Source: Lampropedia aestuarii (GTDB taxonomy: Bacteria > Pseudomonadota > Gammaproteobacteria > Burkholderiales > Burkholderiaceae_C). Taken from it: DNA of 64,000 nt. The DNA is taken from assembly GCF_004803635.1 (NCBI RefSeq), contig NZ_SSWX01000007.1:1-64000 (forward strand). The letters run 5' to 3'. A model generated the notes under the pieces. That model did not search any database. It was not told where the DNA came from and was given only the letters and a program-made list of their open reading frames with translations. Shown in pieces: positions 388-62,120 of this stretch. The first letter of the stretch is position 1. Each line of letters opens with the position of its first letter. The translations under genes were made by a program, and so were the position numbers.

Positions 388-566
388 GTGGGAATGCGCT
401 TTTGTGTGCCTTGCAGCTCCTTGTGGTGTTGGGGGTTGAAGCCCAAAAGGCGCACTGCTGTGTTAAAAATATTCGCCGGGCAGCCAGCCCGACTGTGGTT
501 GTTGCCGCGCATTGCATCCTGCGGGGCTTCAATGCGGTTGCGTCGAGATTGCGCGCAGGCTCCTAG
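388..566 (+). repeat. Dispersed intergenic repeat, copy A (left end missing)
   Basis: Member of the repeat family shared with 22042-22298, 28198-28356, 50007-50195, 50580-50794 and 61850-62120. It carries the conserved core (TTAAAAAT, CGCCGGGCAGCCAGCCCG, GCCGCGCATTGCATCCT) and the right terminal part with CAGGCTCCTAG. No matching left terminal repeat is visible, so this copy seems truncated. It fills the gap between the insertion sequence and hsdM. No coding function is apparent. Confidence 0.75.
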
Positions 567-688
567 GGGAATCACCCCCATAAGCGCTTGCTTTGATGGA
601 GGGTGCGCAGTCGTACCCAAAAGCGAAGAAAATCGGTCGCGGCTTATCAGACATAATCAGTTGTTCAATTGTGTCTATCCACTCCCGC

Positions 689-2248
689 ATGCTCGACGAC
701 ATTAAAAAAACACTCTGGGCCGCTGCCGACAAGCTGCGCGCCAACATGGACGCAGCCGAATACAAGCACCTGGTGCTCGGGCTCATCTTTATCAAATACA
801 TCTCTGACAGCTTTACTGGCTACAGCGCGCAGCTGGCCCAGCGCCTGCGTGACCCAGACGATGAACTGTTCTATGGCGATGCCAGCGATGAAGACATTGC
901 AGGCGAGCTGGAAGACCGCGACTACTACCTTGCAGGCAACGTATTCTGGGTGCCTGAAGGGGCCCGCTGGGAAGACCTGCGTGCTGCCGCCAAGCAGCCC
1001 GACATTGGCAAACGCATTGACGATGCATTGGCACTGATAGAAACCGAAAATCCCAAGCTCAAAGGCATTTTGGACAAGCGCTACGCCCGTGCCCAATTGC
1101 CAGACGGCAAGCTGGGCGAGCTGGTGGATTTAATCTCCACCATTGGCTTTGGCGACACGCCAGACCAAGCGCGTGACGTGCTGGGGCAGGTGTATGAATA
1201 CTTTTTGGGCCAGTTCGCCAGTGCCGAAGGCAAAAAGGGCGGCCAGTTCTACACGCCAGCCAGCATTGTCAAAACCCTGGTGGCCGTGCTGGCCCCGCAC
1301 GAAGGCAAGGTATACGACCCCTGCTGCGGCTCGGGTGGCATGTTTGTACAGTCAGAAAAATTCATTGCCAGCCACGGCGGCAAGATTGGCGATGTGTCCA
1401 TCTACGGGCAAGAATCCAACCCCACCACCTGGCGCTTGGCGGCCATGAACCTGGCCATTCGCGGCATTGACTTCAACCTGGGCAAAGAGCCGGGCGACAG
1501 CTTTGTGCGCAACCAGCACCCGGATCTGCGCGCCAACTACATCCTGGCCAACCCGCCCTTTAACATCAGCGACTGGTGGCACGGCAGCCTGGAGGGCGAC
1601 CCGCGCTGGGTCTACGGCACGCCGCCGCAAGGCAACGCCAACTATGCCTGGCTGCAACACATGCTGCACCACCTGCACCCCACGGGCCGCGCCGGCATTG
1701 TGCTGGCCAATGGCTCTATGTCATCCAGCCAGAACAGCGAAGGCGAAATTCGTGCCGCTATGGTGCAGGCCGATGTGGTGGAAGTCATGGTGGCGCTGCC
1801 CGGCCAATTGTTCTTTAACACGCAAATTCCCGCCTGCCTGTGGTTCCTCACCAAGGCCAAACCCGCGCAGCGCAAGGGCCAGGTCCTGTTTATCGATGCC
1901 CGCAAACTGGGCAGCATGATTAGCCGCGTGCAGGCCGAACTCACCGATGAAGCCACTGACCGGATTGCCCACACCGTGGCCGCATGGCGCGGTGAAGCAG
2001 ACGATGGCTCAGCCTACGAAGACATACCCGGCTTTTGCCGCAGCGTGCCGCTCGCTGAGATTGCACAGCACGGCTATGTGCTGACCCCAGGCCGCTATGT
2101 GGGCGCGGAAGCAGTGGAAGACGACGACGAAGCTTTTGCTGAGAAGATGCAGCGTTTAACCCTCCAACTGGGCGAGCAGATGAAGAAGGGCGCGGAGCTG
2201 GATGCGGTGATTCGGCAGAAGCTGGGGGGGCTGGGGTATGAGTTCTGA
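689..2248 (+). CDS. hsdM: Type I restriction-modification methyltransferase subunit HsdM
   Basis: N6-adenine DNA methyltransferase subunit of a type I restriction-modification enzyme. It joins HsdS to methylate the target and also HsdR for restriction. With the start at 689 it has 519 residues. An N-terminal helical HsdM_N region begins at [19 protein letters not shown] lies near 185-190, the SAM-binding motif [11 protein letters not shown] at 210-219, and the catalytic motif NPPF at 288-291, which defines a gamma-type adenine methylase. The 689 ATG begins at the conserved family N-terminus. A GTG at 671 is an alternative, while the longer frame from 593 runs into the upstream repeat. hsdS overlaps its 3' end by 11 bases, implying translational coupling. 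Confidence 0.95.
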
Positions 2249-3515
2249 GTGGCTGCAGGGAAAACTTGGCGAATTTATTGAACTCAAGCGTGGTTATGAC
2301 TTGCCGCAAGCAAAGCGTGAGCCAGGAGAAATACTGCTAGTTTCATCTTCTGGTATTACTGACAAACATAGTTCAGCAATGGTCAAAGGGCCTGGCGTTG
2401 TAACGGGTCGATATGGAACTTTGGGACAAGTTTTTTATATTCCCGAAGATTTCTGGCCATTAAATACAACTTTGTATGTGAAGGACTTCAAAGGCAACGA
2501 CCCTAAATTTATTCACTACTTTCTAAAAACCATTGATTTCTTCGCTTTTTCAGATAAGGCGGCTGTGCCGGGGGTCAACAGAAATCATTTGCACGAAGCG
2601 CTGGTAAACGTTGCACCGTTGAAAGAGCAAATTGGAATCGCTAGGGTTCTCGGTGATTTGGACGACCGCATCACCCTCCTACGTGAAACCAATGCCACGC
2701 TGGAGGCCATGGCCCAAGCCTTGTTCAAGTCGTGGTTTGTGGACTTCGACCCCGTTCAGGCCAAACAACAAGGTTGCGCCCCCGAAGGCATGGACGCCGC
2801 AACCGCCGCGCTCTTTCCCGATAGCTTTGAGGAGTCGGAATTGGGGATGGTGCCGAAGGGGTGGAGGCTTGTGCCATTTGGTGAGTGCTTGTCGCACACT
2901 ATCGGTGGCGATTGGGGAAATGATGCACCAGATGAGTCAAATGACACCCGTGTGGCCATTATTCGTGGAACAGATATTCCAGACCTTCATGCATGCAGTG
3001 AAAACAGAGTTCCTATTCGTTTTACGACTCAAAAGAAGCTGAAAAATAGAGAACTAAAAGCCGGTGATATTGTTATTGAGGTGTCCGGTGGAAGCAAAGA
3101 CCAGCCGACTGGCCGTTCAATACTGATAACAGAAGAAATTCTTTCGAGATTTGACTGTCCTGTGGAGCCTGCTAGTTTTTGCAGGCTTTTCCGCCCCTCT
3201 CAGATTGACTTGTCGTACCTCTTGGCGCAGCAATTGATTTTTATCTATGCCCAAGGAAAGACATGGGAGTACCAAAATCAAAGCACCGGCATCGCAAATT
3301 TCCAAACCACCCATTTTCTCGACACTGAGCTAGTGGCAATCCCCACAGAAGATGTTTTGAAGAAATTTTGCGAAATTGTGGTGCCATTAGTTGCGCAGAT
3401 GAATGGCTCCCGAATTAGGCAGCTTACAGAACTCCGTGACACCTTGCTCCCCCGCCTCATCTCCGGCCAATTACGCTTACCTGAAGCGCAAGCCTTGGTG
3501 GAGCCAGTGGTATAA
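2238..3515 (+). CDS. hsdS: Type I restriction-modification specificity subunit HsdS
   Basis: DNA-recognition subunit (425 residues) that sets the bipartite target of the HsdMRS complex. Two target-recognition domains are visible. The first spans about residues 1-130 and ends in a coiled-coil spacer ([19 protein letters not shown] then [16 protein letters not shown]). The second runs from about 205 and ends with the equivalent helix [14 protein letters not shown]. Base composition is clearly more AT-rich than in hsdM and hsdR, as expected for exchangeable recognition domains. The start overlaps hsdM. The target sequence cannot be predicted from here. Confidence 0.94.
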
Positions 3516-3754
3516 ACCATCAAGTTAACATTTTCTGCACTTCTTTTATGAGCATTTCCATGTGTTTTTTATTGGAAAGTTCTGATAATTGAGCGAAATG
3601 TGACCACTATCCACTATCAAATTCACCGTGCAAGAAAGCGTCTCCTTCCGTGAGCCAGCTGGCCTATGGAGAAGCAGAGCATACAGACAACAACATTGGC
3701 GACTGTGGGGCTGTCATCAAGCCTCCTACCCCAGCAAACCCGGAGAAAAATGCG
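3516..3754 (+). promoter_or_regulatory. Spacer between hsdS and mcrB
   Basis: About 240 AT-rich bases separate the two halves of the defence operon. No gene is evident. A GTG at 3650 opens a 35-residue extension of mcrB with no family features, and the ATG at 3755 preceded by GGAGA is preferred. The length and composition would allow an internal promoter for mcrBC, but no clear -35/-10 pair could be assigned. Confidence 0.3.
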
Positions 3755-5407
3755 ATGACCTTAGCCCCATCGGCACCATTGAATCAAATTGTGTTTGGCC
3801 CGCCTGGTACCGGAAAAACCTACAGTACGGTTACTAAGGTCATACAAATTCTAGATCCGAAATTGTTAGCACAAGTGAAGGCAGATACTACTCTGAGTCA
3901 GGATGCGAAGCGAAAGCGGCTGAAGCTACGATTTGATGAGCTGCTTAATGATGAGAGGCGTGTTCGCTTCACTACCTTTCACCAGAGCTTTAGTTATGAA
4001 GATTTCGTAGAAGGAATAAGAGCCAATCTTTCTAGGGAGAATGAGGTGGATGAGGACGTATCAGCACTTGCCTACCGCATTGAGCCAGGAGTTTTCAAAC
4101 AGCTTTGTGAGGATGCGCAGCGTGACCCATTAGCAGAGGCGAAAGCAGGCATTAGCCCAAATGCTAATGTCTGGAAAATGTCGATTGAAGAAGCTAGTAG
4201 TGACGGGCAAACGCGGCAATACTGCTTTGCGCATGACGAGGCCCGCATAGGTTGGTGCGATGTTGGCAATCTTGAGTCAGAACAGTTTGAGCATGACGAG
4301 AATCTCGGTGTAAAAGAAAAGAGCTCGCTACGTAACTTTGGCTTCCGAATTCAAGTCGGGGATATTGTGGTTTGCCTGAAGACCGTCAAAACGATTCAAG
4401 CTGTTGGGGTCGTGACTGGGCCCTACGTTTACGAAGAAACGGTACCGGTAGGCGTGCGCGAAGACTACGTCCACAAGCTGCAAGTGCATTGGCTGGCTAC
4501 CGGACTTAATTTGGATATAACCTCAATCAACGGGGGCAAGCAGTTGACTCTGCAGACGGTGTATCGGCTGTGGAATATGTCATGGCCCAATCTGCAGAAG
4601 GCATTGACCGATGCGAACATCGAACTTCGAGGGCTCGATCTGAGAAAGCGTGATGAGCAGTTTCCCTATGTTTTGGTGATTGACGAAATCAACCGGGGCA
4701 ATGTGTCGCGCATTTTTGGCGAGCTGATTACCTTGCTAGAACCCTCAAAGCGCGCAGGGGCTGCGGAAGCGCTGTCGGTGACGCTGCCGTATTCAAAAAC
4801 GAAGTTTTCTGTGCCAAGCAATGTGTACATCATCGGCACGATGAATACGACAGACCGCTCATTGGCGGGACTGGATGTGGCACTGCGACGCCGTTTTGAG
4901 TTCGAAGAGCTAATGCCTGACCCCGATGCCTTGAAGGGCGTGGTGGTGAGTGAAGGCGGCCTCAGCGTGAATATTGCCGAATTGCTGCGCGTGATGAATG
5001 AGCGCATTGAGGCATTGCTGGACCGCGCGCACCAACTGGGCCACGCCTACTTCATGGAGCTGCGCGAAGATGCATCGCGGGCAAGACTGGCGCAGGTTTT
5101 TAAGAATCGGGTGATTCCACTGCTGCAGGAGTATTTCTTTGATGACTGGGAGCGCATCGCCTGGATACTGAACGACCACCGCAAGCCTGCCGGCCAACGT
5201 TTTGTGCAAAAGCATGGCAAGAGCTTGGATGTGTTGTTTGGCGAAAACCATGGCGTCCAGGCGGTTGATAAGCGGTGGTGCCTCAATCCCTTGGCGTTTG
5301 ATGCATTGGCCAGCTTTGCAGGGGTGATTGACGCCGGTACGATGGGTTCGGCGATGGTGGCTAAGGCTCCTGAGCAAGATGCCAAAACTGCGGATATTGT
5401 CAATTGA
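3755..5407 (+). CDS. mcrB: McrB-like AAA+ GTPase with an EVE-like insert
   Basis: Motor subunit of a modification-dependent (type IV, McrBC-like) restriction system. From ATG 3755 it has 550 residues. Walker A is GPPGTGKT at about 15-22, Walker B is VLVIDEINRG at about 306-315, and the McrB signature MNTTDRS is at about 363-369. Together they mark the McrB GTPase clade of AAA+. The usual N-terminal DNA-binding domain is missing. Instead, about residues 138-265, between Walker A and Walker B, look like an EVE/PUA-type modified-base reader: it starts VWKMSI, then has IGWCDVGN, VGDIVVCLK and GVVTGPYVYEE. The stop overlaps the TTG start of mcrC. The AAA+ call is strong. The EVE assignment is inferred from motif pattern. 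Confidence 0.88.
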   Translation: MTLAPSAPLNQIVFGPPGTGKTYSTVTKVIQILDPKLLAQVKADTTLSQDAKRKRLKLRFDELLNDERRVRFTTFHQSFSYEDFVEGIRANLSRENEVDEDVSALAYRIEPGVFKQLCEDAQRDPLAEAKAGISPNANVWKMSIEEASSDGQTRQYCFAHDEARIGWCDVGNLESEQFEHDENLGVKEKSSLRNFGFRIQVGDIVVCLKTVKTIQAVGVVTGPYVYEETVPVGVREDYVHKLQVHWLATGLNLDITSINGGKQLTLQTVYRLWNMSWPNLQKALTDANIELRGLDLRKRDEQFPYVLVIDEINRGNVSRIFGELITLLEPSKRAGAAEALSVTLPYSKTKFSVPSNVYIIGTMNTTDRSLAGLDVALRRRFEFEELMPDPDALKGVVVSEGGLSVNIAELLRVMNERIEALLDRAHQLGHAYFMELREDASRARLAQVFKNRVIPLLQEYFFDDWERIAWILNDHRKPAGQRFVQKHGKSLDVLFGENHGVQAVDKRWCLNPLAFDALASFAGVIDAGTMGSAMVAKAPEQDAKTADIVN

Positions 5408-6708
5408 AGACCAATCTTGTCACCGTTCGAGAATATGCCAGGCTGACGACAGCAGATTGCGCGCCGTCTTTGGATACGCATCACGTTTCGCCTTCTGCAT
5501 TTGCTTGGCTGTGCGAGTTGCAAAGCCGGTTAAGCAAAGGCGGAGCGAGTCTGCTGGAGCTGCAGGGGCAGACTTGGCTACGGTTAGATAGCCTGGTCGG
5601 TGTGGTGCAGACACCGTGCGGCACAACCCTGGAGGTGTTACCCAAGACCTTCTCGGATGCAGACGATGTGCAAAGCAGTCGCAAGCTGTTGCGCAAGGTC
5701 GTGGCAGCGCTGTTGGACTTACCGGGCAAAGAGGCATCCACTGCCGCATTGGAGCACTTTGATGTGCCGCTTACCGAGTGGGTGATGACACAGTTTGTGC
5801 AGCATTTGCAGCAATTGGTACGACAGGGCTTGCGCTCTGACTATGTGCGACAGGAGGAAGAGCTGCCATTTTTACGTGGACAACTGAATACGACAGCACA
5901 CATGCGTCAGTCTATAGGCAGGGCCCATTTGTTCCATGTGCGACACGATGTGTTTTCGCCCAACCAAGCCGCGAATCGTTTGTTGCGATTGGCGCTAGAG
6001 CGAGTACGCCAAGCGACTGCACGGCCAGACACCTGGCGTGTGGCCAACGAATTAAGCCACCGGTTGGGTGAAATTCCTCAAAGTATGAGTCAGGCGCAAG
6101 ACTGGCGTGCCTGGGGCTCTGGACGCTTGATGGCTCGCTACCAGTCCATCAAGCCTTGGTGTGAGCTGGTGTTGGGTGAAGGCATGCCGTTGGCGCTTAA
6201 GGGGAAGGCACATGGCGTGAGTTTGCTATTTCCGATGGAAAAGCTGTTCGAAAACTATGTGACGCGTGCTTTGCGCAAGCAGATGGCGGACGGATTTACG
6301 TTGCATGTTCAGCCACGTCAGCACTCGTTAGCCTTACATAAAAGCCAGCCGATGTTTCAACTGAAGCCTGATTTGGTTGTGCGGGATGCAGAGGGCTGCG
6401 CTGTTGCTGTGCTGGACTGCAAATGGAAGCGAGTTGACCAAGCTTTAAGCAATAAAAAATACGATATAGAGCAAAGTGACATGTACCAGATGTTGGCCTA
6501 TGGCTGTAGGTATCTGCTTGGAGCTGGAGAGATGTATCTGGTGTATCCACGTTGGCAGCGCTTTGAGTCGGCACTGCCTGAATTTGTTTTGCCTAGAGAG
6601 CTGAAGTTGCACGCTGCGCCATTTGATATGGACTCGGATGGTGGCGCGCTGTTGTTAGGGCTCTCGCCCACATTTCTACGAGCAACAAAATCGCCCATAC
6701 ACAATTAA
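5404..6708 (+). CDS. mcrC: McrC nuclease subunit of an McrBC system
   Basis: Endonuclease partner of McrB that stimulates its GTPase and cuts DNA. The 434-residue protein has an N-terminal beta-rich McrB-contact region and a C-terminal PD-(D/E)xK nuclease fold. KPDLVV gives Asp about 323, VLDCKWK gives Asp 338 and Lys 340, and the following QMLAY (about 362-366) fits a QxxxY element. The start is a TTG that overlaps the mcrB stop (TTGA), so translation is probably coupled. All expected catalytic residues are present. Confidence 0.88.
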   Translation: MKTNLVTVREYARLTTADCAPSLDTHHVSPSAFAWLCELQSRLSKGGASLLELQGQTWLRLDSLVGVVQTPCGTTLEVLPKTFSDADDVQSSRKLLRKVVAALLDLPGKEASTAALEHFDVPLTEWVMTQFVQHLQQLVRQGLRSDYVRQEEELPFLRGQLNTTAHMRQSIGRAHLFHVRHDVFSPNQAANRLLRLALERVRQATARPDTWRVANELSHRLGEIPQSMSQAQDWRAWGSGRLMARYQSIKPWCELVLGEGMPLALKGKAHGVSLLFPMEKLFENYVTRALRKQMADGFTLHVQPRQHSLALHKSQPMFQLKPDLVVRDAEGCAVAVLDCKWKRVDQALSNKKYDIEQSDMYQMLAYGCRYLLGAGEMYLVYPRWQRFESALPEFVLPRELKLHAAPFDMDSDGGALLLGLSPTFLRATKSPIHN

Positions 6709-6731
6709 GCAATTGACGGAGTATCGAGACA

Positions 6732-9700: not shown

Positions 9701-9953
9701 GCTGGCCAACAACGAGTCGGCGGTGAAGGAACTGACCGATGAGACGTTGAAGAAGATTGCTCATGAGCTGACGGAAAACCTGCGCAAGAACATCACGGTG
9801 GATTGGAGCCAACGCGAGAGCGTGCGTGCCAGCCTGCGGTTGATGGTCAAGCGCATTCTGCGCAAGTACAAATACCCGCCAGACCTTGCCGATTCAGCCG
9901 TCGAGTTGGTGCTGCAGCAGGCCGAGGCATTGGGGGAGAGCTGGGGCGCATAG
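6732..9953 (+). CDS. hsdR: Type I restriction endonuclease subunit HsdR
   Basis: Motor and nuclease subunit (1073 residues) of the type I enzyme encoded with hsdM and hsdS. The N-terminal nuclease has RPD (Asp 140), MELK (Glu 154, Lys 156) and QIQTY (171-175). The SF2 translocase has Walker A QGSGKS at 301-306, DEAH at 407-410 and motif III FTGTPVS near 481-487. The C-terminal part is helical and would contact HsdM. A 23-base gap separates it from mcrC, so the five genes are likely one transcript. No frameshift or motif loss is visible. HsdR is normally next to hsdMS, and here mcrBC lies between. Confidence 0.95.
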
Positions 9954-10124
9954 CCAGTCACGTCACTGCGGTTGTGACCTGACTGAACCCAGCAGCCTGC
10001 GTGATACCTGGGGTAATGCAGTGTTTGAGAAGGGCTGCATTCACGACCACCATGTGGCGGTGGCGAAGAATAGGGCGGCTCAACAAAGCAGATAGAAGGA
10101 TGGCTGATGGTGGGTAGAGCCTAA

Positions 10125-12843: not shown

Positions 12844-12881
12844 TTAGAACGTGTTTGCATTGCATGCAAACGCGTTCTTAG
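12844..12881. repeat. Palindrome after infA, related to the repeat-family ends
   Basis: TTAGAACGTGTTTGCAT pairs with ATGCAAACGCGTTCTTA across a 3-base loop, with one mismatch. The arms match the AAGAACGTGTTTA-type ends of the repeat at 61850-62120, so this may be a minimal copy made only of termini. It could also act as a transcription or mRNA 3'-end hairpin for infA, although no T tract follows. Confidence 0.6.
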
Positions 12882-22041: not shown

Positions 22042-22298
22042 GAGAGGCTGTTCATGAACGCTATGCAGTCGTGCATGGCGTTCGTAGTTGCTCAACCGTC
22101 TATATACGCCAAATGGGCAGTGCAGCAATGCGCTTTTGTGTACCTTACAACCTGCATTGGGTGTTTGGGGTTGAAGCCCAAAAGGCACGCAGCTTTGTTC
22201 AAAATGCCCGTCGGGCGGCTTGTTCAACTGCGTCCCTTGCTGCGCCTCGCATCCATTGGGGTTGCAGCGTGGTCTGCGGCGAGACCTTGACCAAGCCC
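22042..22298 (+). repeat. Dispersed intergenic repeat, copy B (diverged)
   Basis: Both ends are recognisable: AGAGGCTGTTCATGAACG on the left and GGTCTGCGGCGAGACC on the right. The core (GAAGCCCAAAAGGCACGCAG, CTTTGTTCAAAAT, CGCATCCATTGGGGTTGCAGCG) is shared but more diverged than in the copies near ileS. It lies just upstream of the M20 peptidase gene and could carry or disrupt its promoter. Confidence 0.72.
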
Positions 22299-27618: not shown

Positions 27619-27714
27619 TGGCGGAAAGCAGCAGGAGTCGAACCTACCAGGGAGTGTCTAACACCCCCTACCGGGTTTGAAGCCCGGGCGCACCACCGGA
27701 TGCGTATGCCTTCC
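27619..27714 (-). tRNA. selC: tRNA-Sec (selenocysteine, anticodon TCA)
   Basis: The minus strand gives a 96-base tRNA with encoded CCA and the special features of bacterial tRNA-Sec. It has an 8-base-pair acceptor stem (GGAAGGCA with TGCTTTCC, G discriminator), a long D stem, an anticodon stem CCCGGG/CCCGGT around CTTCAAA (anticodon TCA), a long variable arm (GGGGGTGTTAGACACTCCC), and T-arm CAGG-TTCGACT-CCTG. It inserts selenocysteine at UGA codons with SelA, SelB and SelD, none of which is in this window. A selenoprotein, often formate dehydrogenase, is therefore expected elsewhere in the genome. Confidence 0.95.
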
Positions 27715-28197: not shown

Positions 28198-28356
28198 TAA
28201 GAGCTTGTTCGAAATCTCCACGCAGCCGCGTTGCAGCTCCAATGGTGCAAGCTTTGTTAAATATCCTTGCCGGCCAGCCAACCCGATTGCGGTTTTAGCC
28301 GCGCATTGCCTCCTTTGGGGCTGCAACGCGGCTGCGTGGAGATTGTGAACAAGGAA
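28198..28356 (+). repeat. Dispersed intergenic repeat, copy C
   Basis: Complete copy of about 159 bases. The termini form a perfect 24-base inverted repeat (ATCTCCACGCAGCCGCGTTG... matched by ...CAACGCGGCTGCGTGGAGAT), flanked by GAGCTTGTTC and GAACAAG. The core keeps CTTTGTTAAATATCCT, GATTGCGGTTTTAGCCGC and GCATTGCCTCCT. The whole element can fold into one long stem with inner hairpins. It lies between tRNA-Sec and the GTPase cluster. Confidence 0.85.
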
Positions 28357-31786: not shown

Positions 31787-31910
31787 GAGAGCCTGTTTGC
31801 CATCTCCCACAGTCACGCAAGGAGCAAAAAGTGCAATGCAGCATTGCTGCATTGCCTGTTGCCGCTTCTTGTGCTGTGCGACTGCACAGAGCTGATGAAC
31901 AGGCTCTAAG
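31787..31910 (+). repeat. Dispersed intergenic repeat, copy H (short form)
   Basis: About 124 bases bounded by AGAGCCTGTTTGCCATCTCC and GATGAACAGGCTCTAAG, the same terminal type as the copies near ileS. The interior is different, with a palindromic GCAATGCAGCATTGCTGCATTG. It is probably a shortened or rearranged member. Confidence 0.7.
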
Positions 31911-38206: not shown

Positions 38207-38740
38207 GTAGTGACTCCAGTCGATTGGTTGAATACGGATTCACCTCTACGTGGTAGAGACGAGAAGGCTGGTAAGCGCCAATCTTGCAAGAACAAGAAAG
38301 CCGCTAGCGATGCTAGGCCTATGCCAGTAGGAGGAGGTTATGGGCCGCGAGTTCCTTACTTGCAACACAGGGGGCAGCGCTGTCCATCGAGAACCATTGT
38401 GCCATTGTCTTGGCTAAACACGTGCAAGCGTGTGTGTAATCCATGCCAGGGCGGGGCCTGCTGTTAGAGCTTGTTCAAGATCTCGGCGCAGGCGCGGAGA
38501 TCTTGAACACGTTCTTAGCCTGTTTAAAGCCATTTACACACACGCAATACCCTATGGCGGCAAGCCAACAAAAATGCTTGGGTTAAATCGCAAGCCATAA
38601 AATGGGTTGGTCTGCAACGCGTTTTTAGGCGTTTATACCTTGAATTATTGGCCCATGGCGCCATTTGGTCTAAACGACTTGAAACACGAGACGATGCTTA
38701 TGGGGCGCGACTGCACAGCGCCCGAAGTTTCAAAAAGGAT
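38207..38740. other. Intergenic region with mini-repeat D
   Basis: About 530 bases between divergent genes. Apart from the hairpin at 38464-38518 nothing is recognised. It should contain promoters for both flanking genes. Confidence 0.4.
38464..38518. repeat. Dispersed repeat, mini copy D (termini only)
   Basis: GTTCAAGATCTC and GAGATCTTGAAC form a perfect 12-base stem around a 12-base loop (GGCGCAGGCGCG). The flanks TTAGAGCTT and CACGTTCTTAG match the two end types of the repeat family. It appears to be an internally deleted element. Confidence 0.75.
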
Positions 38741-49778: not shown

Positions 49779-50006
49779 CTAAGAACGTGTTGATGATCTC
49801 TTCGCAGACCGCTTGGCATCATTTGCGGCTAGGGGCTGTTGCAAAGGCCATAAACGGCCTGAATGTCTGAGGAAGCTGACTGACGGGGGGCGCCTTGTGT
49901 ATTTCGACCTGTCGCGCATGGCTCGAACAAGCGTCAAGCAACGCTTTCAATACCCGCTTGTTGTTCGATCCGTACGCGACTGAGAAGAAACCATCAACAG
50001 GCTCAT
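49779..50006 (+). repeat. Dispersed repeat, copy E0 (different interior)
   Basis: Begins with CTAAGAACGTGTTGATGATCTC and GCAGACCGCTTGG, and ends with CCATCAACAGGCTCAT, so both ends belong to the family. The interior is unlike the other copies and contains GGGGCTGTTGCAAAGG, which resembles ends of some IS elements. It is followed directly by copy E. Confidence 0.6.
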
Positions 50007-50195
50007 AAAGCCTGTTCATCATCTCCACGCAGCTGCGCAAAGCGTTTTTTGTGCCTTGCCCTTGGATCCCCAAAGGGACGCTGCTTTGTTAAAAATCCTC
50101 GCCAGGCAGATAGCCCGCTTGCGGTTTTTTTGCCGCGCATTGCATCCTTGTGGGCTCCAACGCGGACTGCGAAAAGATCATCAACAGGCTCTTAG
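50007..50195 (+). repeat. Dispersed repeat, copy E
   Basis: Complete copy bounded by AGCCTGTTCATCATCTCCAC and AAAGATCATCAACAGGCTCT. The core carries GCTTTGTTAAAAATCCTCGC, GCGGTTTTTTTGCCGC and GCATTGCATCCTTGTGGGCT. It is oriented opposite to copy F, 385 bases away. Confidence 0.85.
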
Positions 50196-50523: not shown

Positions 50524-50579
50524 TTGCGGTGAAAAAACGCGCACCGCATCCCGGCGCGCGTTGTTAGTGCAGCTGCTTA

Positions 50580-50794
50580 CAGCCTGTTCAAAGTCTCCAC
50601 GCAGACCGCGTTGGAGCCCACAAGGATACGATGCGCGGCAAAAACCGCAGTCGGGCTATCTGCCCGGCGAGGATTTTTAGCAAAGCAGCGTGCCTTTGGG
50701 ACGTCAACCCGAAGGGCAAGACACAAAAAAGCGTATTACTGCGCCTTTTTTTGTGCCTTGCGCGACTGCGTCGAGCCTTTGAACAGGCTCTTAG
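50580..50794 (-). repeat. Dispersed repeat, copy F (overlaps the ileS stop codon)
   Basis: Complete copy of about 215 bases in reverse orientation. The termini AGCCTGTTCAAAGTCTCCAC and AGCCTTTGAACAGGCTCTTA are inverted repeats. It contains a second strong hairpin (CAAGACACAAAAAAGCG with CGCCTTTTTTTGTGCCTTG) absent from the shorter copies. Its right end GGCTCTTAG provides the TTA that is the ileS stop codon on the minus strand. Confidence 0.88.
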
Positions 50795-53658
50795 GCAATA
50801 CGGCGCACTTCACCAGTGCCGTACAAATTGCTGATGGCGCGCTCAGACAGTTCCGGATATTGGGCATTGCGGCCAACCGTCTCGCTGTAATGCCAGGTCA
50901 TCGCGCATTTCTGACCGGGTGCCAGTGCTACTTGCACCGCCAACTCTTCGCCGGCAGCCAGTGTGGCCTGCGATGTGATGAACACGTACTTCAGGTCCTC
51001 GCCCAGGCTGTGCAGGTATTCGTAGTCGCCTGGTGCAGCGGTGATGGTGATCGCCGCTTGCAAGGACGAGCCCAATTCGCCCGTGGTGCGCACGGCTTCG
51101 ATTTCCTTGTTGGCGATATCACGAATGGCGCGGATGCGCTCCCATTTGTCGCTGAGCGCCTTGGCCTCTGCGACTTGGGGAATCGCATGGTAGGTCTCAA
51201 TGAAGATGCTGTCGCTTTGGCCAGGCGCGAAAATTGGCCAGGCTTCTTCGGCAGTGAAGGACAGGAATGGGGCCATCCAGCGCAGCATGGCGTGGGTGAT
51301 ATGCCAGAGCGCAGTCTGTGCGCTGCGGCGTGCCAGGCTGTTTTCCTGCGTCACATACAAACGGTCTTTGAGTGCATCCAGGTAGAACGCGCCCAGGTCT
51401 TCCGAGCAATACACCTGCAGCTTGGACACGACTGGGTGGAATTCATAGACCTTGTAGTGCGCCAGAATGTCTTCCTGCAAGGCTGCCGCGCGGGTCAGTG
51501 CGTATTGGTCAATTTCCAGCAACTGCTCCAGTGGCACGGCATCGGTGGCGTGGTTGAAGTCGCTGGTGTTGGCCAGCAAAAAGCGCAAGGTGTTGCGGAT
51601 GCGGCGGTAGGAATCGACGACGCGGGCCAGAATCTTCTCATCAATTGCCAGGTCGCCCGAGTAATCGGTTGACGCCACCCACAGGCGGATGATCTCGGCG
51701 CCCAGTTTGCCGCTCACCTCTTGCGGGGCAACGGTATTGCCCAGCGACTTGCTCATTTTCTTGCCTTGGCCGTCGACGGTGAAGCCGTGCGTCAGCAAGC
51801 CTTTGTAGGGCGCGCGGCCGTTGAGCGCGGACGACAACAGCAGCGAGCTGTGGAACCAGCCGCGATGCTGGTCGTGGCCTTCCAGGTACAGGTCAGCTTC
51901 CTGGCCGGTTTGGTGGCCTGCTGCAGCGTGTGTGCCGTGCAGCACATGCCAGAAGGTCGAGCCTGAGTCAAACCAGACGTCCAGAATGTCGTTGACCTTG
52001 TTGTATTGGAGTGCTTCTTCAGCGCCCAGAATGTCTTCGGTTGTGGCGCGGCTCCAGGCCTCAATGCCGCCTTCCTGGACGATCTGGATGGCCTTGTCGA
52101 AAATCTCCAGTGTGCGCGGGTGCAGCGCTTCGGTGTCCTTGTGCAAGAAGAACGGCAGTGGCACGCCCCAGTTGCGCTGGCGCGAAATGCCCCAGTCTGG
52201 GCGGTTGGCGATCATATTGTGCAAGCGCGCCTTACCGTTGGCTGGGTAGAAGCTGGTTTGTTCAATCGCCGCCAGTGCGGTCTCACGCAGCGTCATCGCT
52301 GGTTGTTCGTTGGCAAACAAGCCCTCGCCTTCATCCATGCGCACAAACCACTGGGCGGTGGCGCGGTAGATCACTGGCGATTTGTGGCGCCAGCAGTGCG
52401 GGTAGCTGTGCGAGATGGTTTGTGTGGCCATCAGACGGCCAGCGAGCTTCAGCGCATCCAGGATCACCGGCACGGCTTTCCAGATGTGCTGGCCACCAAA
52501 CAGCGGCCAGTCAGCCACATACACGCCGTTCGACTGCACCGGCGTCAGAATGTCCGAATGCTTGAAACCGTAGTTGATGCAGGAGTTGAAGTCATCCACA
52601 CCGTAGGCAGGTGCTGAATGCACGATACCGGTGCCGTCATCGGCAGTGGCGTAGTCAGCCAAGATTACTGGAGCCAGGCGGCGGTAGCCTGCATCGGCGT
52701 TGTAGAGTGGGTGCTCAAACTGCAAGTCGGCCAGTTGTTTGCCCTGCACGGTCGCGACCACTTGGCCTTCGAGTGCGTAACGCTCCAGGCATTTCTCGAC
52801 CAGCGGCGCAGCCAGCAGCAAATACCCTTTGGGCGTATCGACCAACGCATACTCGATCTCAGGATTGAGGTTCAGCGCCTGGTTGGCAGGGATGGTCCAG
52901 GCCGTTGTGGTCCAAATCACCACAAATGCGTCTTTGGCTGCATCAGGCAGGGCCGCCAGGCCGAACGCTTTGGCCAGCGCGGCGCGATCGTGGGCTTTGA
53001 AGGCCACATCCAAGGTGTCGGATTTTTTGTCGGCGTATTCGATCTCGAATTCAGCCAGCGACGACTGGCAGTCAAAACACCAGTACACCGGCTTCAGGCC
53101 GCGGTAGAGAAAACCTTTTTCCATGACTTGCTTGAGCACGCGCAGCTCGCCAGCTTCGTTGGCGAAGTTCATGGTTTTGTAGGGGTTGTCCCAGTCGCCC
53201 AGCACGCCCAGGCGCTTGAAGTCGGCCATTTGCTGGTCGATCTGCTCTTGCGCAAATACGCGGGCCTTGGCCTGCATGTCGTCACGGCTGAGGTTGCGGC
53301 CATGCAGCTTTTCAATCGCGTTTTCAATCGGCAAACCGTGGCAGTCCCAGCCGGGGATGTAGGCCGCATCAAACCCTTCGAGTTGGCGCGACTTGACGAT
53401 CATGTCCTTGAGGATTTTGTTGACCGCATGGCCAATATGGAGTTGGCCGTTCGCATACGGTGGGCCGTCATGCAGCACAAATTGCGGGCGGCCTTGACGG
53501 GCCGCGCGCAGTTTCTTGTAGATCCCTTGCTCTTCCCATTTTGCAACCCAGCCTGGCTCGCGTTTGGGCAAGTCGCCGCGCATCGGGAAGGGGGTGTCGG
53601 GCAGGTTCAGCTTGCTGCGGTAATTGGTGTCTGTAGCGGTGGTTTTCTCTTGGGACAT
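50791..53658 (-). CDS. ileS: Isoleucyl-tRNA synthetase
   Basis: Class I aminoacyl-tRNA synthetase (955 residues) that charges tRNA-Ile. HIGH is at 74-77 in [17 protein letters not shown], the editing (CP1) domain includes [11 protein letters not shown], and KMSKS lies near residue 630 in [13 protein letters not shown]. Start at ATG 53658 (MSQEKTT). The C-terminal zinc module is degenerate: where E. coli-like enzymes have CxxC...CxxC this protein reads KCAMTWHY...ELSERAISN, so only one of four Cys remains. The usual ribF-ileS-lspA neighbours are missing. The stop codon lies in repeat copy F. Confidence 0.97.
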
Positions 53659-54974: not shown

Positions 54975-55109
54975 TTCTTTAGCGAGTCAGTTGCCAATTC
55001 GCTCCTGCGAATCAGAGCCATGCCTATCGCAGGTAAGATTTGGCCACTCACCTTGAGTAGCCGGTTTTTTGTTGCAACAAGCGGCACCTTGCTTATTGCA
55101 TAGCCAGCC

Positions 55110-55138
55110 AAAAAAGCTCCGCACAAAGGGGCTTTTTT
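55110..55138 (+). terminator. Rho-independent terminator after efp
   Basis: AAAAAAGC(TCC) pairs with (GG)GGCTTTTTT around a short loop, ending in a T tract. It is about 135 bases downstream of the efp stop. Confidence 0.75.
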
Positions 55139-55267
55139 ATCGGCGTTAATCAGCCAGAGACAGGTGAAATCCAATAGGGCGTGCCCCACCAGTGTGATCG
55201 AGACAAGTCGAGACGATGTAAGGCAAGGCACGTATTGCAAACCCAACAACAATCCAAGGAATCTCCT

Positions 55268-56611: not shown

Positions 56612-56628
56612 AACGCAGCACAGGCAGA

Positions 56629-57633
56629 ATGTCCAACCCATTGAACTCTGCTGACAACGGCTTGCTTGGCAAGCCGTTTTTTATCCTGACAGGCCCGACA
56701 GCGTGCGGCAAGTCGGCGTTGTCTTTGGCGCTGGCGCGCGCGCTGCAGGCTCACAGGCCGGTGGAGCTGGTCAGTGTCGATTCGGCCTTGGTCTACAAAG
56801 GCATGGACATTGGCACGGCCAAACCAACCCCTGAAGAGTTGGCGCAGGCGCCACACCATTTGATTGATATCCGCGAGCCCGACCAAAGCTACAGCGCGGC
56901 CGATTTTTTACGCGATTGCGAGCTAGCCGTTGATGCGGCGCTGGCGCGCGGCGCTTTTCCGATCTTGGTTGGCGGCACCATGCTGTATTTGCATGCGCTG
57001 CTCAACGGCCTGGACCCACTGCCACCGGCTGATGCTGCGGTGCGCGCCGAGCTGGACGCGCGTGCGTCAGAGCAAGGCTGGCCGGCGATGCACGCGTGGT
57101 TGGCCGAGGTCGACCCCATCACCGCTCAACGCCTAGCACCCCAAGACGCCCAGCGCATCCAACGTGCGTTAGAGGTGTGGCGCATCACCGGCCAGCCCTT
57201 GTCGCAACTGCAGCAGCGCAGCCAGCGTGATCTGTCCTGGCAAGGCGACTGGATTGCCCAGCGCATCGTGTCGCTGGAGCCACAAGAGCGCAGCTGGTTG
57301 CATGCCCGCACCGATTTGCGCTTTGACCTGATGCTCAAAGCCGGTTTTTTGGATGAGATCGACCGCTTGCGCGCCAACCCCCAACTGCATGCGCAGCTGC
57401 CCTCGATCCGCGCGGTCGGCTACCGCCAGGCCTGGCAAATGCGCGATGGCGAAGTCGCAGAAAAAGACTGGGTGCCACAAGCGCAAGCAGCCACCCGTCA
57501 ACTTGCCAAACGCCAGCTGACCTGGCTGCGCAGCATGCCAACCAGACAAGTACTGGCCTGCGACCTGCTCAATGCCGAGCAGCAACTGCAGCAAGCACTG
57601 CCCCTTGTGCGCCGCGTGATGGCACAAGCTTAA
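56629..57633 (+). CDS. miaA: tRNA dimethylallyltransferase
   Basis: Adds the isopentenyl group to A37 of tRNAs that read UNN codons (334 residues). The P-loop is LTGPTACGKSALS near residues 20-32, followed by VSVDSALVYKGMDIGTAKP, PHHLIDIREPDQSYSAADF and GGTMLYLHALLNGL, all MiaA hallmarks. Later come RIQRALEVWRITG and RAVGYRQAW. The start at 56629 lies just after the gdhA stop. It is not next to mutL or hfq, which are common neighbours elsewhere. Confidence 0.96.
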   Translation: MSNPLNSADNGLLGKPFFILTGPTACGKSALSLALARALQAHRPVELVSVDSALVYKGMDIGTAKPTPEELAQAPHHLIDIREPDQSYSAADFLRDCELAVDAALARGAFPILVGGTMLYLHALLNGLDPLPPADAAVRAELDARASEQGWPAMHAWLAEVDPITAQRLAPQDAQRIQRALEVWRITGQPLSQLQQRSQRDLSWQGDWIAQRIVSLEPQERSWLHARTDLRFDLMLKAGFLDEIDRLRANPQLHAQLPSIRAVGYRQAWQMRDGEVAEKDWVPQAQAATRQLAKRQLTWLRSMPTRQVLACDLLNAEQQLQQALPLVRRVMAQA

Positions 57634-57649
57634 AACGGCGAGGTTGGGG

Positions 57650-57769
57650 GGGCAGCTTTGCTGCCCACGCCAGCTGCCGTTCAAACATAGGGCGTTGCAA
57701 ACTGCGCTGCAAAGAGGAGGCAGCTTGTATTCAGATTGCGCCACCTGCGTGGGCAGGAAACCTGCCCAC
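57650..57769. terminator. Pair of hairpins between convergent miaA and prfH
   Basis: GGGCAGC-TTT-GCTGCCC at 57650-57666 and GTGGGCAGG-AAA-CCTGCCCAC at 57749-57769 are two perfect hairpins with 3-base loops and related stems. They lie between convergent genes and probably mark transcript ends from both sides, although T tracts are absent. Confidence 0.55.
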
Positions 57770-57799
57770 CCTCCATCGTTTGCTTGTTTCAGCGCCTGC

Positions 57800-58471
57800 T
57801 TATGGCTTGCCCTGCACCACATGCATGGCCAATTGCCCTTTGCGGCCTGGCTTGCGCTGCGGCTGGGCAGTGAATGTGCGCACCGGATTGCCACGCACCA
57901 CGCTCCAGTGCAAATGGCTGCGCTGCTTTTTCGCCTCTTCTTGAGCCGTTTGGTGTTGGCCTGCCAGCTTGAGCGCAATCAGCGCACGCGCCAACTGTTT
58001 GTTCGCATACTGGCTGCGCTGGGTTTGCACTTTCACTGCGACGCCAGAAGGAAGATGCAGCGCATGCACGGCCGAATCGGTGGTATTGACATGCTGGCCG
58101 CCTTTGCCAGAGGCTTTACAGGCTTTGAACACCAGATCCTGCTCACGCACAATCGGATTGGGCTGCGCATCTTGCTCCAGCGTGCAGGACTGCACCGCGA
58201 CAAACCAGTTTTTGCGTGGGTGGCCTGGGCGCAACGGGCTGGCAAAGGTCCATTGAATCGTGCCTTGCCAACTGCGCAAGCAGGCCGCTGCGCCGTCGCC
58301 ACGCACCGCCAGTACCGCAGATTTCAGGCCTTGCGCGCCCCAGTGCGCCTCCAGTAAATCCACTTCCAGCGCCTGTTGTTGTAGGTCTTGGCTGATTGCC
58401 TGCAGCGTCAGCTTGGCTGCCAGTTCGCATTCCAGTGGGCCATGCGCGGCCGTGATTTGGATCAGCAGCAT
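57800..58471 (-). CDS. prfH: Peptide chain release factor homologue PrfH
   Basis: Release-factor paralogue (223 residues) with the peptidyl-hydrolysis loop GKGGQHVNTTDSAV and the following QRSQYANKQLA block, but without the full stop-codon-reading domain of RF1/RF2. PrfH genes are paired with rtcB2. Published work describes PrfH with RtcB2 rescuing ribosomes whose 16S rRNA decoding centre was cut by ribotoxins. Here prfH overlaps the rtcB2 stop by 10 bases, so the pair is translationally coupled. Confidence 0.92.
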   Translation of the reverse strand: MLLIQITAAHGPLECELAAKLTLQAISQDLQQQALEVDLLEAHWGAQGLKSAVLAVRGDGAAACLRSWQGTIQWTFASPLRPGHPRKNWFVAVQSCTLEQDAQPNPIVREQDLVFKACKASGKGGQHVNTTDSAVHALHLPSGVAVKVQTQRSQYANKQLARALIALKLAGQHQTAQEEAKKQRSHLHWSVVRGNPVRTFTAQPQRKPGRKGQLAMHVVQGKP

Positions 58472-59646
58472 GTGGGCGCACCTTTCTTGTAGGTGAGTAC
58501 CGGCTTAAAGCGTGCGATCAACTCGACCAAACCTGCGTCCACCAGCGTGGCCACGACACTGTCGACTTTTTTATACGCCTGAGGTGCCTCTTCAAACAGC
58601 AAGGCCTTGTCGTTGCAGACCACGCTGCTGGCAAAGCGGGTGGTGCGCAAATCACTGGCATGGAATTTGGCAGACAGCCTGCCTTCGCAATCGGCTCTGG
58701 CCCATTTGCGACCAGCACCGTGCGCAAGCGAACACAGCGCTTCTTGCCGTTCAGCCACTGGGCGCACCAAATAGCTGTAATCCCCGCGTGAGCCGGGAAC
58801 CATCACGATGCCCTGGTCTGACGGGGTTGCGCCTTTGCGGTGCAAGTAACCGGATTGGCCTTGGTAGGTGGCCGCCAGCACGTGGTTGTGCGAAACATCC
58901 AGCAAGCACTCGCCTTCGCTGCGCAAACTGTGCAGAAAACGCTGGGCAATCCAATGCCGGTTGCAGTGGGCAAATTGCTGCGCCAAGTCATGCTGCTGCA
59001 AATACGCAGCAGCGGCTGGGCTATTGGCTGCCAAGCCGCGATGGCCAAACGCATCCACATGGGCGCGCAAAATCGCGCCACCCAAACCGCGTGAGCCGCT
59101 GTGCACGAGCAGGTACAAGGTTTTGGCACTGAGCTGGAGCGCGCTCGCCGCTTCATACAGATGGTCCAGCGCCAGCACCTCTGCAAAATGGTTGCCACCG
59201 CCAATCGTGCCCAGGCTGGACGCCAGCAGGCTGGCATCAATGGGCAAGCTGACTTCTTGCAGCAAGCCGTTTAATTCTGCATAGGCGCCAGCCTGCAAAG
59301 CTTCAGGTAAAGCGCCTTCCTGGCTGCCAATGCGTTTTTCCAGCTTTTGCGCCGAGTACTGGTGTGTTTTCAATGGGGTTTGCCACAGCGCCATGCCGCA
59401 GCCAATATCTCCTCCTACCAGTGCCGGGTAGAAATGCCCAGTAGAGAAAAAAGCAGCGCCTACGGGGTAGCCCCGGCCTGGATGGAGGTCAGGCAGGCCT
59501 ACGGCTGCACGGATGTGCGGCAGCGTTGCGGTTGTGTGGAGTTGTTCGACGGCGCTGGCTTCCAGCCAGACATCCGGATTGGCAAAAATACGTACCTCTG
59601 CAGCGTCTGCATTTGCACGTACTTTCACCTGCATAGAATGGCCCAT
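58462..59646 (-). CDS. RtcB-family RNA ligase (RtcB2 type)
   Basis: Encodes 394 residues of the GTP-dependent RtcB RNA ligase family, which joins 2',3'-cyclic phosphate or 3'-phosphate ends to 5'-OH ends. Metal and active-site motifs are LVGGDIGCGM (Asp, Cys), GTIGGGNHFAEV (His), HSGSRGLG, DVSHNH and the GMP-accepting His in SLAHGAGRK. No archease or RtcA gene is next to it. The pairing with prfH marks it as the RtcB2 subgroup for ribosome repair rather than the RtcAB operon. AAGGAAT precedes the ATG. Confidence 0.93.
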   Translation of the reverse strand: MGHSMQVKVRANADAAEVRIFANPDVWLEASAVEQLHTTATLPHIRAAVGLPDLHPGRGYPVGAAFFSTGHFYPALVGGDIGCGMALWQTPLKTHQYSAQKLEKRIGSQEGALPEALQAGAYAELNGLLQEVSLPIDASLLASSLGTIGGGNHFAEVLALDHLYEAASALQLSAKTLYLLVHSGSRGLGGAILRAHVDAFGHRGLAANSPAAAAYLQQHDLAQQFAHCNRHWIAQRFLHSLRSEGECLLDVSHNHVLAATYQGQSGYLHRKGATPSDQGIVMVPGSRGDYSYLVRPVAERQEALCSLAHGAGRKWARADCEGRLSAKFHASDLRTTRFASSVVCNDKALLFEEAPQAYKKVDSVVATLVDAGLVELIARFKPVLTYKKGAPTCC

Positions 59647-60212
59647 TGGGGATTCCTTGAAAGTAAAAATTCAACAAATTCATCAGCAAGCACAGAGAGT
59701 TGGTGCGGTGCATGGCTGCGAAGCACACGCTTGGCAGAGGGCTTGAATGCAGCGTGGATGGTCCGCCACTGTCTTTGGCCATACGCCGTATGGGCGTGCA
59801 AAGCCAAGCCGTGCCCATTCAATCAAGGGCGAACAGCAGACAGACAAAGGGGTTTTCCAAGAGGGCGGATCAGAGTCCGCTTGCAGGGCATACGGCCCCG
59901 CAGAGCATCAACGCCTGGAGCGTGTGTCAGGCCATGCGCGCAACGCCAGCTGGCTTGCAAAGCGCATGGGCAAGATCTTGAGTCATGGCATTTCCTTTAC
60001 AAACGAGGCGTTGAAGAAGAGGCGGTGGCAAGCGCGGCAAATGCGTTGACACGCCCAAAGAAGTTGCGAAGTCTAGGCCAAATGGTTTGCCGTGCCTAGC
60101 GTGGCAGGCTGGTGCCTGCTGAAAGTGTTGCATTTATGCAGAAAAATTGCCTTTGTGGTCGACCGCGCAATGGCGGGTTACGCTCTGCTCCAACCCGCCT
60201 TACGGGGTTGTG
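59647..60212. other. Intergenic region between glpD and rtcB2
   Basis: About 565 bases. A hairpin GGCGGGTT / AACCCGCC at 60172-60199 sits next to the glpD stop and may be its 3' hairpin. No rtcR gene or clear sigma-54 promoter (TGGCAC-N5-TTGCA) was found upstream of rtcB2 by eye. No gene is supported. Confidence 0.4.
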
Positions 60213-61838
60213 TTAGCCCATCTGGTATTGCTTGGCCAAGCCTAGGAACGCCTCAGCACTGACCGGCGCGCCCAATTCTTCGGCCATGATCGCCGCCACC
60301 CGTGGCGCTGCTTGCGCCGCAGCCGCCGCATCGACAAACAACAAACGCGAGCGGCGCGCCAGCACATCTTCGACCGTGCGCGCATATTCATAACGCACGG
60401 CAAAGCGCACCATGGCTTCGCTCAATGTGCCGCCGGCATCGACAGCCACATCGGCCCCCGGCAAGGCTTGCACCAGCGCAGCCTCGCTGCCGTATTGCGC
60501 CAGGCCTGCGGGTTGCTGCAGGCTGTGTGTCAAAGACGCTCCCGCAGCTGGCTGGCCGGGGCTGCCCACCAGAGGCAAATGGGCCGTCTGGCAAGTGGGC
60601 AACTTGACCGGAATCAAATGGGCCATTTGGCATTGGCGCAGCACGTCTTCGGCCATCGCCCGGTAGGTTGTCCATTTGCCGCCGGTGACGGTGACCAGCC
60701 CATGCGCTGAAATATGCACCGTGTGTTCACGGCTCAGGCTTTGCGTGGCCGCGCCGCCGTGGCCGCTGCGTGGTGGCTTGACCAACGGGCGCAATCCAGC
60801 CCATTGGCTGCGCACATCGGCAGCGCTGGGTTTGGCGGCCAGATAGCGGGCCGCTTCGGTCAGGATAAAGCCGGCTTCCTCATGCGCGGGGCGCGGCTCT
60901 AGCGGTAAATCCTGGCGTGACTGGTCGGTGGTGCCCAGGATCACATGGCCTAGCCACGGCACGGCAAACAGCACGCGGCCATCGCGGGTTTTGGGCACAA
61001 GCAGCGCGTTGTCGCCGGGCCAGAATCTGCGGTCTACGACCAAGTGCGAGCCTTGGCTGGGCGAAACCATTGGGATCACGGTCTGGCCGCTTTGGCCTTC
61101 ATCGAGCTGGCGCAACTGGTCAACCCAGACGCCGGTGGCGTTGACCACGCAGCGTGCTTGCAAGTCGATACTTTGGCCGCTTTCGCGCTCGGTGATGCGC
61201 GCGCCACTGACCTGGCCTTGTGCGTTGTGCAGCAAGCCTGTGACGCGGGCGTAATTGAGCACATGCGCGCCTTGCTGGGCAGCAGTGCGCGCCAGAGCCA
61301 GTGCCAGGCGGGCATCGTCAAACTGTGCATCCCAGTAGCGAATGCCGCCGCGCAAGCCGCTGCGGTTGACGTTGGGCAGCAGTTGTTCGGTACGCGCTTT
61401 AGACAGTGACTCGGTGGCGGGCAACCGATCTGCAGCGGCCAGTGCGTCGTACATGCGCAGGCCTGTGCCATACAGCGCCGACTCCCAGAAATGGTAGCTG
61501 GGCATGACAAACGGCAGTGGCTGCACCAGATGTGGCGCGTTGGCCAGCAGCACGGCGCGCTCGTGCAGCGCTTCTTTGACCAGTGCGATATTGCCCTGGG
61601 CCAGGTAGCGCACACCGCCATGCACCAGCTTGGTGGCGCGCGAGGACGTGCCTTTGGCAAAATCCTCGGCTTCGACCAAGGCCACTTGCAAGCCCCGGTT
61701 CGCGGCATCGACGGCAATGCCCAGGCCGGTGGCACCGCCACCAATCACCAACAGATCCAATGGCCCGGCATTGGCCAGCGCCTTCCAATGGTCAGCGCGT
61801 GATGGAGTGGGGGGCAGGGCGGGGTGCGGTGAAGTCAT
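60213..61838 (-). CDS. glpD: Aerobic glycerol-3-phosphate dehydrogenase
   Basis: FAD-dependent, membrane-associated enzyme (541 residues from ATG 61838) that oxidises sn-glycerol-3-phosphate to dihydroxyacetone phosphate and feeds electrons to ubiquinone. LLVIGGGATGLGIAVDAANRG is the FAD motif near residue 30, followed by SSRATKLVHGGVRYL and FAVPWLGHVILGTTD, and a C-terminal region rich in Ala. Length is normal for GlpD. An in-frame GTG 6 bases upstream is an alternative start. No glpK or glpF is in the window. Repeat copy G begins 12 bases upstream of the start. Confidence 0.94.
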   Translation of the reverse strand: MTSPHPALPPTPSRADHWKALANAGPLDLLVIGGGATGLGIAVDAANRGLQVALVEAEDFAKGTSSRATKLVHGGVRYLAQGNIALVKEALHERAVLLANAPHLVQPLPFVMPSYHFWESALYGTGLRMYDALAAADRLPATESLSKARTEQLLPNVNRSGLRGGIRYWDAQFDDARLALALARTAAQQGAHVLNYARVTGLLHNAQGQVSGARITERESGQSIDLQARCVVNATGVWVDQLRQLDEGQSGQTVIPMVSPSQGSHLVVDRRFWPGDNALLVPKTRDGRVLFAVPWLGHVILGTTDQSRQDLPLEPRPAHEEAGFILTEAARYLAAKPSAADVRSQWAGLRPLVKPPRSGHGGAATQSLSREHTVHISAHGLVTVTGGKWTTYRAMAEDVLRQCQMAHLIPVKLPTCQTAHLPLVGSPGQPAAGASLTHSLQQPAGLAQYGSEAALVQALPGADVAVDAGGTLSEAMVRFAVRYEYARTVEDVLARRSRLLFVDAAAAAQAAPRVAAIMAEELGAPVSAEAFLGLAKQYQMG

Positions 61839-61849
61839 GGTCACAAAGT

Positions 61850-62120
61850 CTTAGAACGTGTTTACGATCTTTTTACAGACCGCGTTGGAGCCCAAAAGGA
61901 TACGATGAGCGGCAAAAACCGCAGTCGGGCTAGCCGTTCGGCGAGGATTTTTAACAAAGCAGCGTGCCTTTTGGGCTCCAACTCAGAGGGCAAGGCACAA
62001 AAAAGCGCATTGCGGCGTTGCCCGTTTTGTTCATACAGACGTATGAACTGCAACAGGCGCCTTGCACTGCCACTTTTTTGTGCCTTGCGCGACAGCAAAA
62101 AGATCGTAAACACGTTCTTA
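61850..62120 (-). repeat. Dispersed repeat, copy G (upstream of glpD)
   Basis: The longest copy, about 271 bases. Its ends are nearly perfect inverted repeats: TTAGAACGTGTTTACGATCT on the left and AGATCGTAAACACGTTCTTA on the right. The core is the same as copy F (GGAGCCCAAAAGGATACGAT, GCGGCAAAAACCGC, AACAAAGCAGCGTGCC). It occupies the position where the glpD promoter or leader would be. Confidence 0.88.

Follow-up and report, generated by a model that had tools for sequence, protein, structure and literature searches.

A conserved folded core inside ends that vary: intergenic elements, probably moved by IS5-type transposases, in Lampropedia aestuarii and other Proteobacteria

What kind of repeat keeps its interior alike in distant bacteria while its ends differ? 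We studied this question in a stretch of 64,000 nucleotides from Lampropedia aestuarii (assembly GCF_004803635.1, contig NZ_SSWX01000007.1, positions 1 to 64,000; the whole stretch is called the window), where an initial annotation, made from the sequence alone, had described at least eight related inverted-repeat elements between genes, sharing an 80-base core, together with likely minimal or altered forms. The elements were found where that annotation had placed them: six copies in the window bear the core and three further forms are core-less (Table 1). We consider it very probable that they are non-autonomous transposons of the miniature inverted-repeat transposable element (MITE) kind, moved by an insertion sequence (IS) of the IS5 type, with a core selected through a recognised fold. 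The non-autonomous, MITE-like character already proposed in the annotation was borne out by paired ends, TNA target duplications, same-genus IS with matching ends and the lack of a clear coding signal. By every feature testable here in the sequences the element is a MITE; it appears unusual in that the interior is the conserved part.

The genome searched comprises 4.17 Mb in 75 contigs. A 36-base core with up to three mismatches gave 70 matches in it (37 forward and 33 reverse) and none with the reversed control, so that the further copies called for by the annotation exist; strong matches to 50580-50794 numbered at least 40 (of 299 candidates, 40 were scored). We parsed 91 end pairings from this genome and its relatives, a few of them alternative pairings of the same ends. 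The three-base flanks were identical in 49 of the 91, and in 63 both flanks were TNA, with the same middle base in 48 against 19.4 expected (0 of 20,000 permutations); tests on flanks of four bases or longer were trivial by construction and were not used. The duplication is thus TNA, close to the TA, TTA or CTAAG that had been guessed. A size below 500 bp, terminal inverted repeats and target-site duplications (TSDs), as expected of a MITE, were all present.

A transposase whose ends match, also proposed in the annotation as a thing to look for, was found in IS5-family IS of two genomes of the same genus, so the genus holds an autonomous partner with the same ends. In G001 an 843-bp IS with overlapping orfA and orfB and the ends GAACCTGTTCAAAGTCT occurs four times, each time at a contig end and therefore with a single flank (TTA, TCA, TAA and TGA); in G007 an IS of 848 bp has TAA on both sides and ends similar to GAACCTGTTCAAAGTCT. 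The orfB of both IS scored above the NF033580 IS5 cut-off, and orfA, as a part, below it; the open reading frames of the G001 IS match Pfam DDE_Tnp_1 and DUF4096. The TNA duplication, which we take to define the IS1031-like group of the IS5 family, and the NF033580 match of the transposase place the system in that group. Seven of the 11 IS5-type transposase loci in the L. aestuarii genome were examined (the remainder overlap these), and the sole one flanked by the same ends is a decayed locus of 841 bp (C74:131206-132046, flanks TAA/TTA). At one G001 locus (L239), a complete two-module element (652-918) directly adjoins an IS5-family copy with like ends (922 onward).

The core is a structured module. 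Relatives in the genus and in two further genera carry elements of about 267, 183 or 161 bp with a like layout and differing stem sequences. Among 33 module-A sequences of the family, 20 of 35 pairs showed double changes; among 104 model matches (101 distinct, 66 loci) the figure was 34 of 35, in an alignment fitted to the model and leaning towards it. Paired cells made up 95.5% in the 101 distinct matches, against 59.7% when shuffled and 34.5-48.0% when slid. Across the 66 loci, 27 aligned positions held one base in at least 90% of cases, 11 of them unpaired; these near-invariant positions fall in CAAGGCGC, CGCAG, CRAG, GCAACGCC and the closing CAACCC...GGG. Often the module recurs, inverted, in the second half of the element (among the 66 loci, 28 pairs of matches overlap on opposite strands). 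Folding predictions give a T whose stem is made of the terminal repeats, with energies of -152 to -216 kcal/mol on both strands for four of the five stretches folded; the fifth, L152, which had been excised from the wrong position, gave -123 and -131 kcal/mol. A strand-specific RNA was considered and dropped: an excess of G-U over A-C (132 vs 37) in the model-fitted alignment proved to be alignment bias and was gone in a symmetric test. Two variants of the layout were seen: an element of the Burkholderiaceae MAG (metagenome-assembled genome) Xx448_bin5 (L213, 1407-1679) has its two modules in direct, not inverted, order, and in L325, L328, L351 (Azotobacter) and L352 (Halomonas) the second half has a common hairpin, TTTGGAAnnACCAAA.

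DNA similarity reached 12 of 60 relatives. Of the genomes scanned with the covariance model, those with the core numbered 145 of 250 within the family, 102 of 300 within the order, 57 of 274 within the class and 52 of 398 within the phylum. These counts include the L. aestuarii genome and rest on rough E-values, and the wider samples contain some genomes of the narrower ones. A degenerate pattern, present in 51 stretches, was carried by Acidovorax, Polaromonas and Hylemonella MAGs, among others, and by Marinobacter xestospongiae, Sulfurivirga caldicuralii and MAGs labelled Alphaproteobacteria. By BLAST, a G934 copy matched plasmid records of Halomonas, Azotobacter and Pseudomonas aeruginosa, so plasmids are not free of the family; two same-genus queries against plasmids gave no match and a query with L348 one weak match. 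The Azotobacter chroococcum and Halomonas elements, of 271 and 270 bp, both end in CTAG. Single queries against phages and against E. coli found no match, and exact-pattern scans found nothing in viral contigs or in a first scan of genome contigs.

The ends of these distant elements were compared at 89 loci, taking one module per locus; five lay too near a contig end and 84 were scored. An inverted repeat with a score of at least 16 enclosed the module at 66 of the 84, against 0 of 420 with shuffled flanks, and none such was present at the other 18. The size of 50 of the 66 end-bounded elements fell within 255-285 bp, and the 66 loci had 63 different end 16-mers. Over 48 loci, mean pairwise identity was 0.50 at the ends, where the random value is 0.42, against 0.35 in outer-stem columns and 0.90 in core columns; the core columns had been chosen for being conserved, a caution against leaning on this comparison for our reading. 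The two end types of the initial annotation form part of one series; AGAGCCTGTTCA, AGGGCCTGTTCACA, AGGGCTCGTTAATG, AGGGCACCTCTATT, AGGAACCTCTGGTTAA and GGAAGGTCTGCACGAA look like graded steps. The 343-bp element of L348 has the ends GGAAGGTACGAATAAG and GGAAGGTGCGAACAAGTCC and a 4-bp TTAA on both sides; its right end, GGAAGGTGCGAACAAGTCC, has 19 nt in common with the right end of E. coli IS5A, and its left end agrees at 15 of 16. Within a copy, the two ends resemble each other more than they do those of other copies in the same genome: 0.96 vs 3.85 mismatches in 17 nt in G000. Permutation gave 0 of 2,000 at both lengths tested for G000, G001, G003 and G004, 6 and 53 of 2,000 for G007, and 188 and 1,866 for G006 (five copies, no effect). 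This likeness fits selection for pairing or hairpin-templated correction.

Insertion sites were analysed with gene calls from a simple codon-usage script. Among 58 elements of the L. aestuarii genome with paired ends and usable flanks, two rows being adjoining parts of the composite 49783-50191, four lay inside called genes; the other 54 stood between codirectional (40), convergent (9) or divergent (4) genes, with one context unresolved. The relatives gave 35 rows, five inside called genes; one row (L054) is a second fetch of an L. aestuarii copy. Insertion exactly in a stop codon was seen in 12 of the 54 (8.6 expected) and in 15 of the remaining 30 of the relatives (9.2 expected), together 27 of 84 vs 17.9, a modest excess obtained with longer flanks and a per-region expectation. 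A striking targeting of stop codons in a first look was dropped, gene calls on 300-bp flanks being unreliable. Because TNA includes TAA and TGA, insertion at these rebuilds the stop codon, as at 50580-50790, whose right TSD (50791-50793) doubles as the stop codon of a long gene called on the minus strand (50791-53658). The distance behind the upstream stop codon had a median of 38 nt in 37 codirectional L. aestuarii cases and was, at the median, exactly at the stop in 16 such cases from relatives. No bias of orientation to transcription was found in these sets (16 sense and 21 antisense; 7 and 9 in relatives). A half-deleted element of the same-genus genome G002 (L064) occupies the intergenic place that corresponds to window 61850-62120 (L064 aligned with window 61540-62527), and therefore that insertion is probably older than the separation of the two species.

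Matching ends and TNA flanks suggest that an IS5-type transposase would move the element in trans. Folded as a single strand, the complete element is predicted to take the shape of a T in which the terminal repeats form the stem. We infer that selection acts on the core through a widely conserved cellular factor, which recognises this form in either orientation, either as an extruded cruciform or as the folded 3' part of an mRNA. Such recognition would let the element persist next to the 3' ends of genes and continue to spread by means of any IS5-type transposase that is available; the ends would follow the transposase and the core would not. A bolder version, which we hold tentatively and rate somewhat below an even chance, is that a single ancient T-folding lineage of about 270 bp spans the phylum, its identity lying in the doubled inverted module read by the cellular factor while its ends drift or switch. 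It would be the reverse of an ordinary MITE, with a heritable interior and ends that follow the IS5-type transposase at hand. MITEs commonly count as by-products of a single IS; here the interior fold appears to outlive the ends phylum-wide, and therefore something seems to select the fold. The conserved loop would then offer a direct handle on the protein or process that reads the core, and annotators could use one model for repeats that many proteobacterial genomes now list separately or leave out.

Several observations weigh against this reading. A DUF4096 transposase was present in 8 of 30 element-bearing genomes; only two end classes could be tied to an IS, and for the class AGGGCTCGTTAATG an autonomous IS with both ends matching was not seen in eight genomes. 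No clean empty site was found: one candidate proved to be a rearranged locus, and L044, compared with the window, has the site unoccupied and is alignable on one side only. Core-less copies with TTA duplications exist (12847-12877 and 38467-38514), and because of these duplications the core may not be needed for movement. The symmetric count showed no excess of G-U over A-C: the two stood at 91/162 in arm A, 89/81 in arm B and 22/21 in the ends of the L. aestuarii copies, and at 60/56 and 55/65 in distant ones.

The fold could also be a 3' mRNA element (a stabiliser, processing site or terminator) retained for host use, an explanation we think unlikely. The strength of the predicted folding, the position close behind upstream stop codons and the copies lying exactly in stop codons all speak for it, but the elements have no sense bias, and proximity to stops also follows from TNA targets combined with selection against gene disruption. 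Quite unlikely, in our judgement, is an origin of the covarying stems as a by-product of hairpin-templated replication correction, which would leave a fold without function. It would account for the better match of terminal repeats within a copy than between copies in G000, G001, G003 and G004, and for wobble pairs without strand preference; against it, correction would erase the unpaired loop and bulge positions that are near-invariant in the 66 loci, the narrow size range of most end-bounded distant elements does not favour it, and the end effect is absent in G006.

The inverted arrangement of the modules, one beside each terminal repeat, would be expected if the element had arisen by fusion of the two ends of a larger autonomous transposon that carries the module there. 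This is improbable: at 15 loci with DUF4096 hits, modules were found only in adjoining small elements (L239, L033) and never inside the IS, and one-module elements of 161 and 183 bp exist. As for a non-mobile chromosomal RNA gene family, which would likewise have a conserved fold with compensatory changes, it is scarcely tenable in view of the TSDs, the 70 copies, both orientations and the differing neighbours, the TSD statistics in particular being strongly against it. An IS5-moved MITE with a selected core is the reading we retain.

The window itself was scanned with the covariance model R1, taking matches at E <= 1.4e-5; the module at 61880-61996 is part of the training set of R1. Twelve end pairings within five mismatches were found, including alternative pairings of the same ends, and 20 first-order random sequences gave 0-1 per 64 kb; the end motif GARCNTGTTYR occurred 10 times against 1.31 expected. 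Borders GA..TC with TTA/TTA flanks delimit 12847-12877, 38467-38514, 50580-50790 and 61854-62117. Three of the elements (388-566, 22042-22298 and 28198-28356) have the core and ends that failed the pairing test, the last retaining an arm pair of 42 nt, 90% complementary; three others listed in the initial annotation (31787-31910, 38464-38518 and 12844-12881) have ends and no core match. The core-less palindromes 12847-12877 and 38467-38514, with their TTA duplications, are either mobile as such or interior deletions. At 49779-50195 the ends can be paired as 49783-50191, 49783-50004 or 50008-50191, and 49783-50191, with at least two element ends enclosing non-element sequence, has a nested or recombined look. 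A selenocysteine tRNA gene (27623-27714, minus strand) lies about 480 bp away from an element.

Table 1. Elements, core matches and target-site duplications in the 64,000-nucleotide window
Feature	Position	Strand	Details
Decayed element with core	388..566	-	paired ends not recognised
R1 core match	408-537	-	
Minimal end-to-end palindrome	12847..12877	not assigned	TSD TTA
Decayed element with core	22042..22298	-	
R1 core match	22145-22272	-	
One-module element	28198..28356	-	core match
R1 core match	28216-28331	-	
Core-less element	31789..31906	not assigned	flanks TGA/TAA
Core-less end-to-end palindrome	38467..38514	not assigned	TSD TTA
Composite or nested element	49783..50191	-	core module 50053-50165 (-)
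R1 core match	50053-50165	-	
211-bp element	50580..50790	+	module A at 50606-50722 (+), R1
TSD of 50580..50790	50577-50579 and 50791-50793		TTA
Full-length two-module element, 264 bp	61854..62117	+	ends GAACGTGTTTACGATC
TSD of 61854..62117	61851-61853 and 62118-62120		TTA
Module A of 61854..62117	61880..61996	+	R1, 104.2 bits
Module B of 61854..62117, inverted copy of module A	61976..62092	-	R1, 59.8 bits

Known classes of repeat, RNA and gene were compared with the element. REP, BIME and REPIN sequences have GTAG at the feet of their hairpins, and any GTAG was present in only 5 of 56 full-length elements, so the likening to REP in the initial annotation finds no support. Integron attC sites have the signature RYYYAAC ... 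GTTRRRY, found in 0 of the 56. The annotation knew of no named family with this core, and in Rfam 15 no element exceeded a gathering score, the output being two tRNAs, one t44 outside the element and three weak sub-threshold matches. It had also seen no coding capacity, and we detected no clear coding signal: open frames are long (median 88 codons), those of distant elements being fully open in 20 of 37 cases vs 0.55 in random sequence, which is about the random rate, and those of L. aestuarii copies in 16 of 24 vs 0.41, somewhat above it (G003, 0 of 3), an excess that we put down to shared ancestry. Core strings had no match in open papers, and literature searches found no title or abstract opening naming this core; we found neither the conserved core nor its wide occurrence described earlier, and some member may still have been reported before.

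Usually it is the ends that define a MITE family; in the present one, conservation across the phylum lies in the interior and not in the ends. BOX, RUP, ERIC and Correia elements are structured mobile repeats able to sit in mRNAs; they have other ends and smaller host groups, a separation made by description. These four are named in a MITE review, which describes prokaryotic MITEs as short, gene-less and intergenic, with terminal inverted repeats, direct repeats and IS with matching ends (PMC10969869), general features all common to the element described here. Coxiella QMITE2 is a folded MITE of 150-190 bp that sits chiefly in 3' untranslated and intergenic regions, with direct repeats of 7-11 nt and a GTAG REP (PMC5896051), a signature that our element does not have. 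The P. fluorescens repeats R0, R2, R26 and R200 are intergenic too, and several form hairpins; their sizes (89, 110, 352 and 320 bp) differ from those found here, and the ends of R0 and R2 equal those of two IS (PMC2718517). Compared by description, R26 or R200 could be members of the family. The review (PMC10969869) cites MITEs from Polaromonas sp. JS666 (Mattes 2008), which are of the same class, and a Polaromonas MAG has the core pattern; on their descriptions, these MITEs and the Pseudomonas repeats may belong to the same family as the elements of L. aestuarii.

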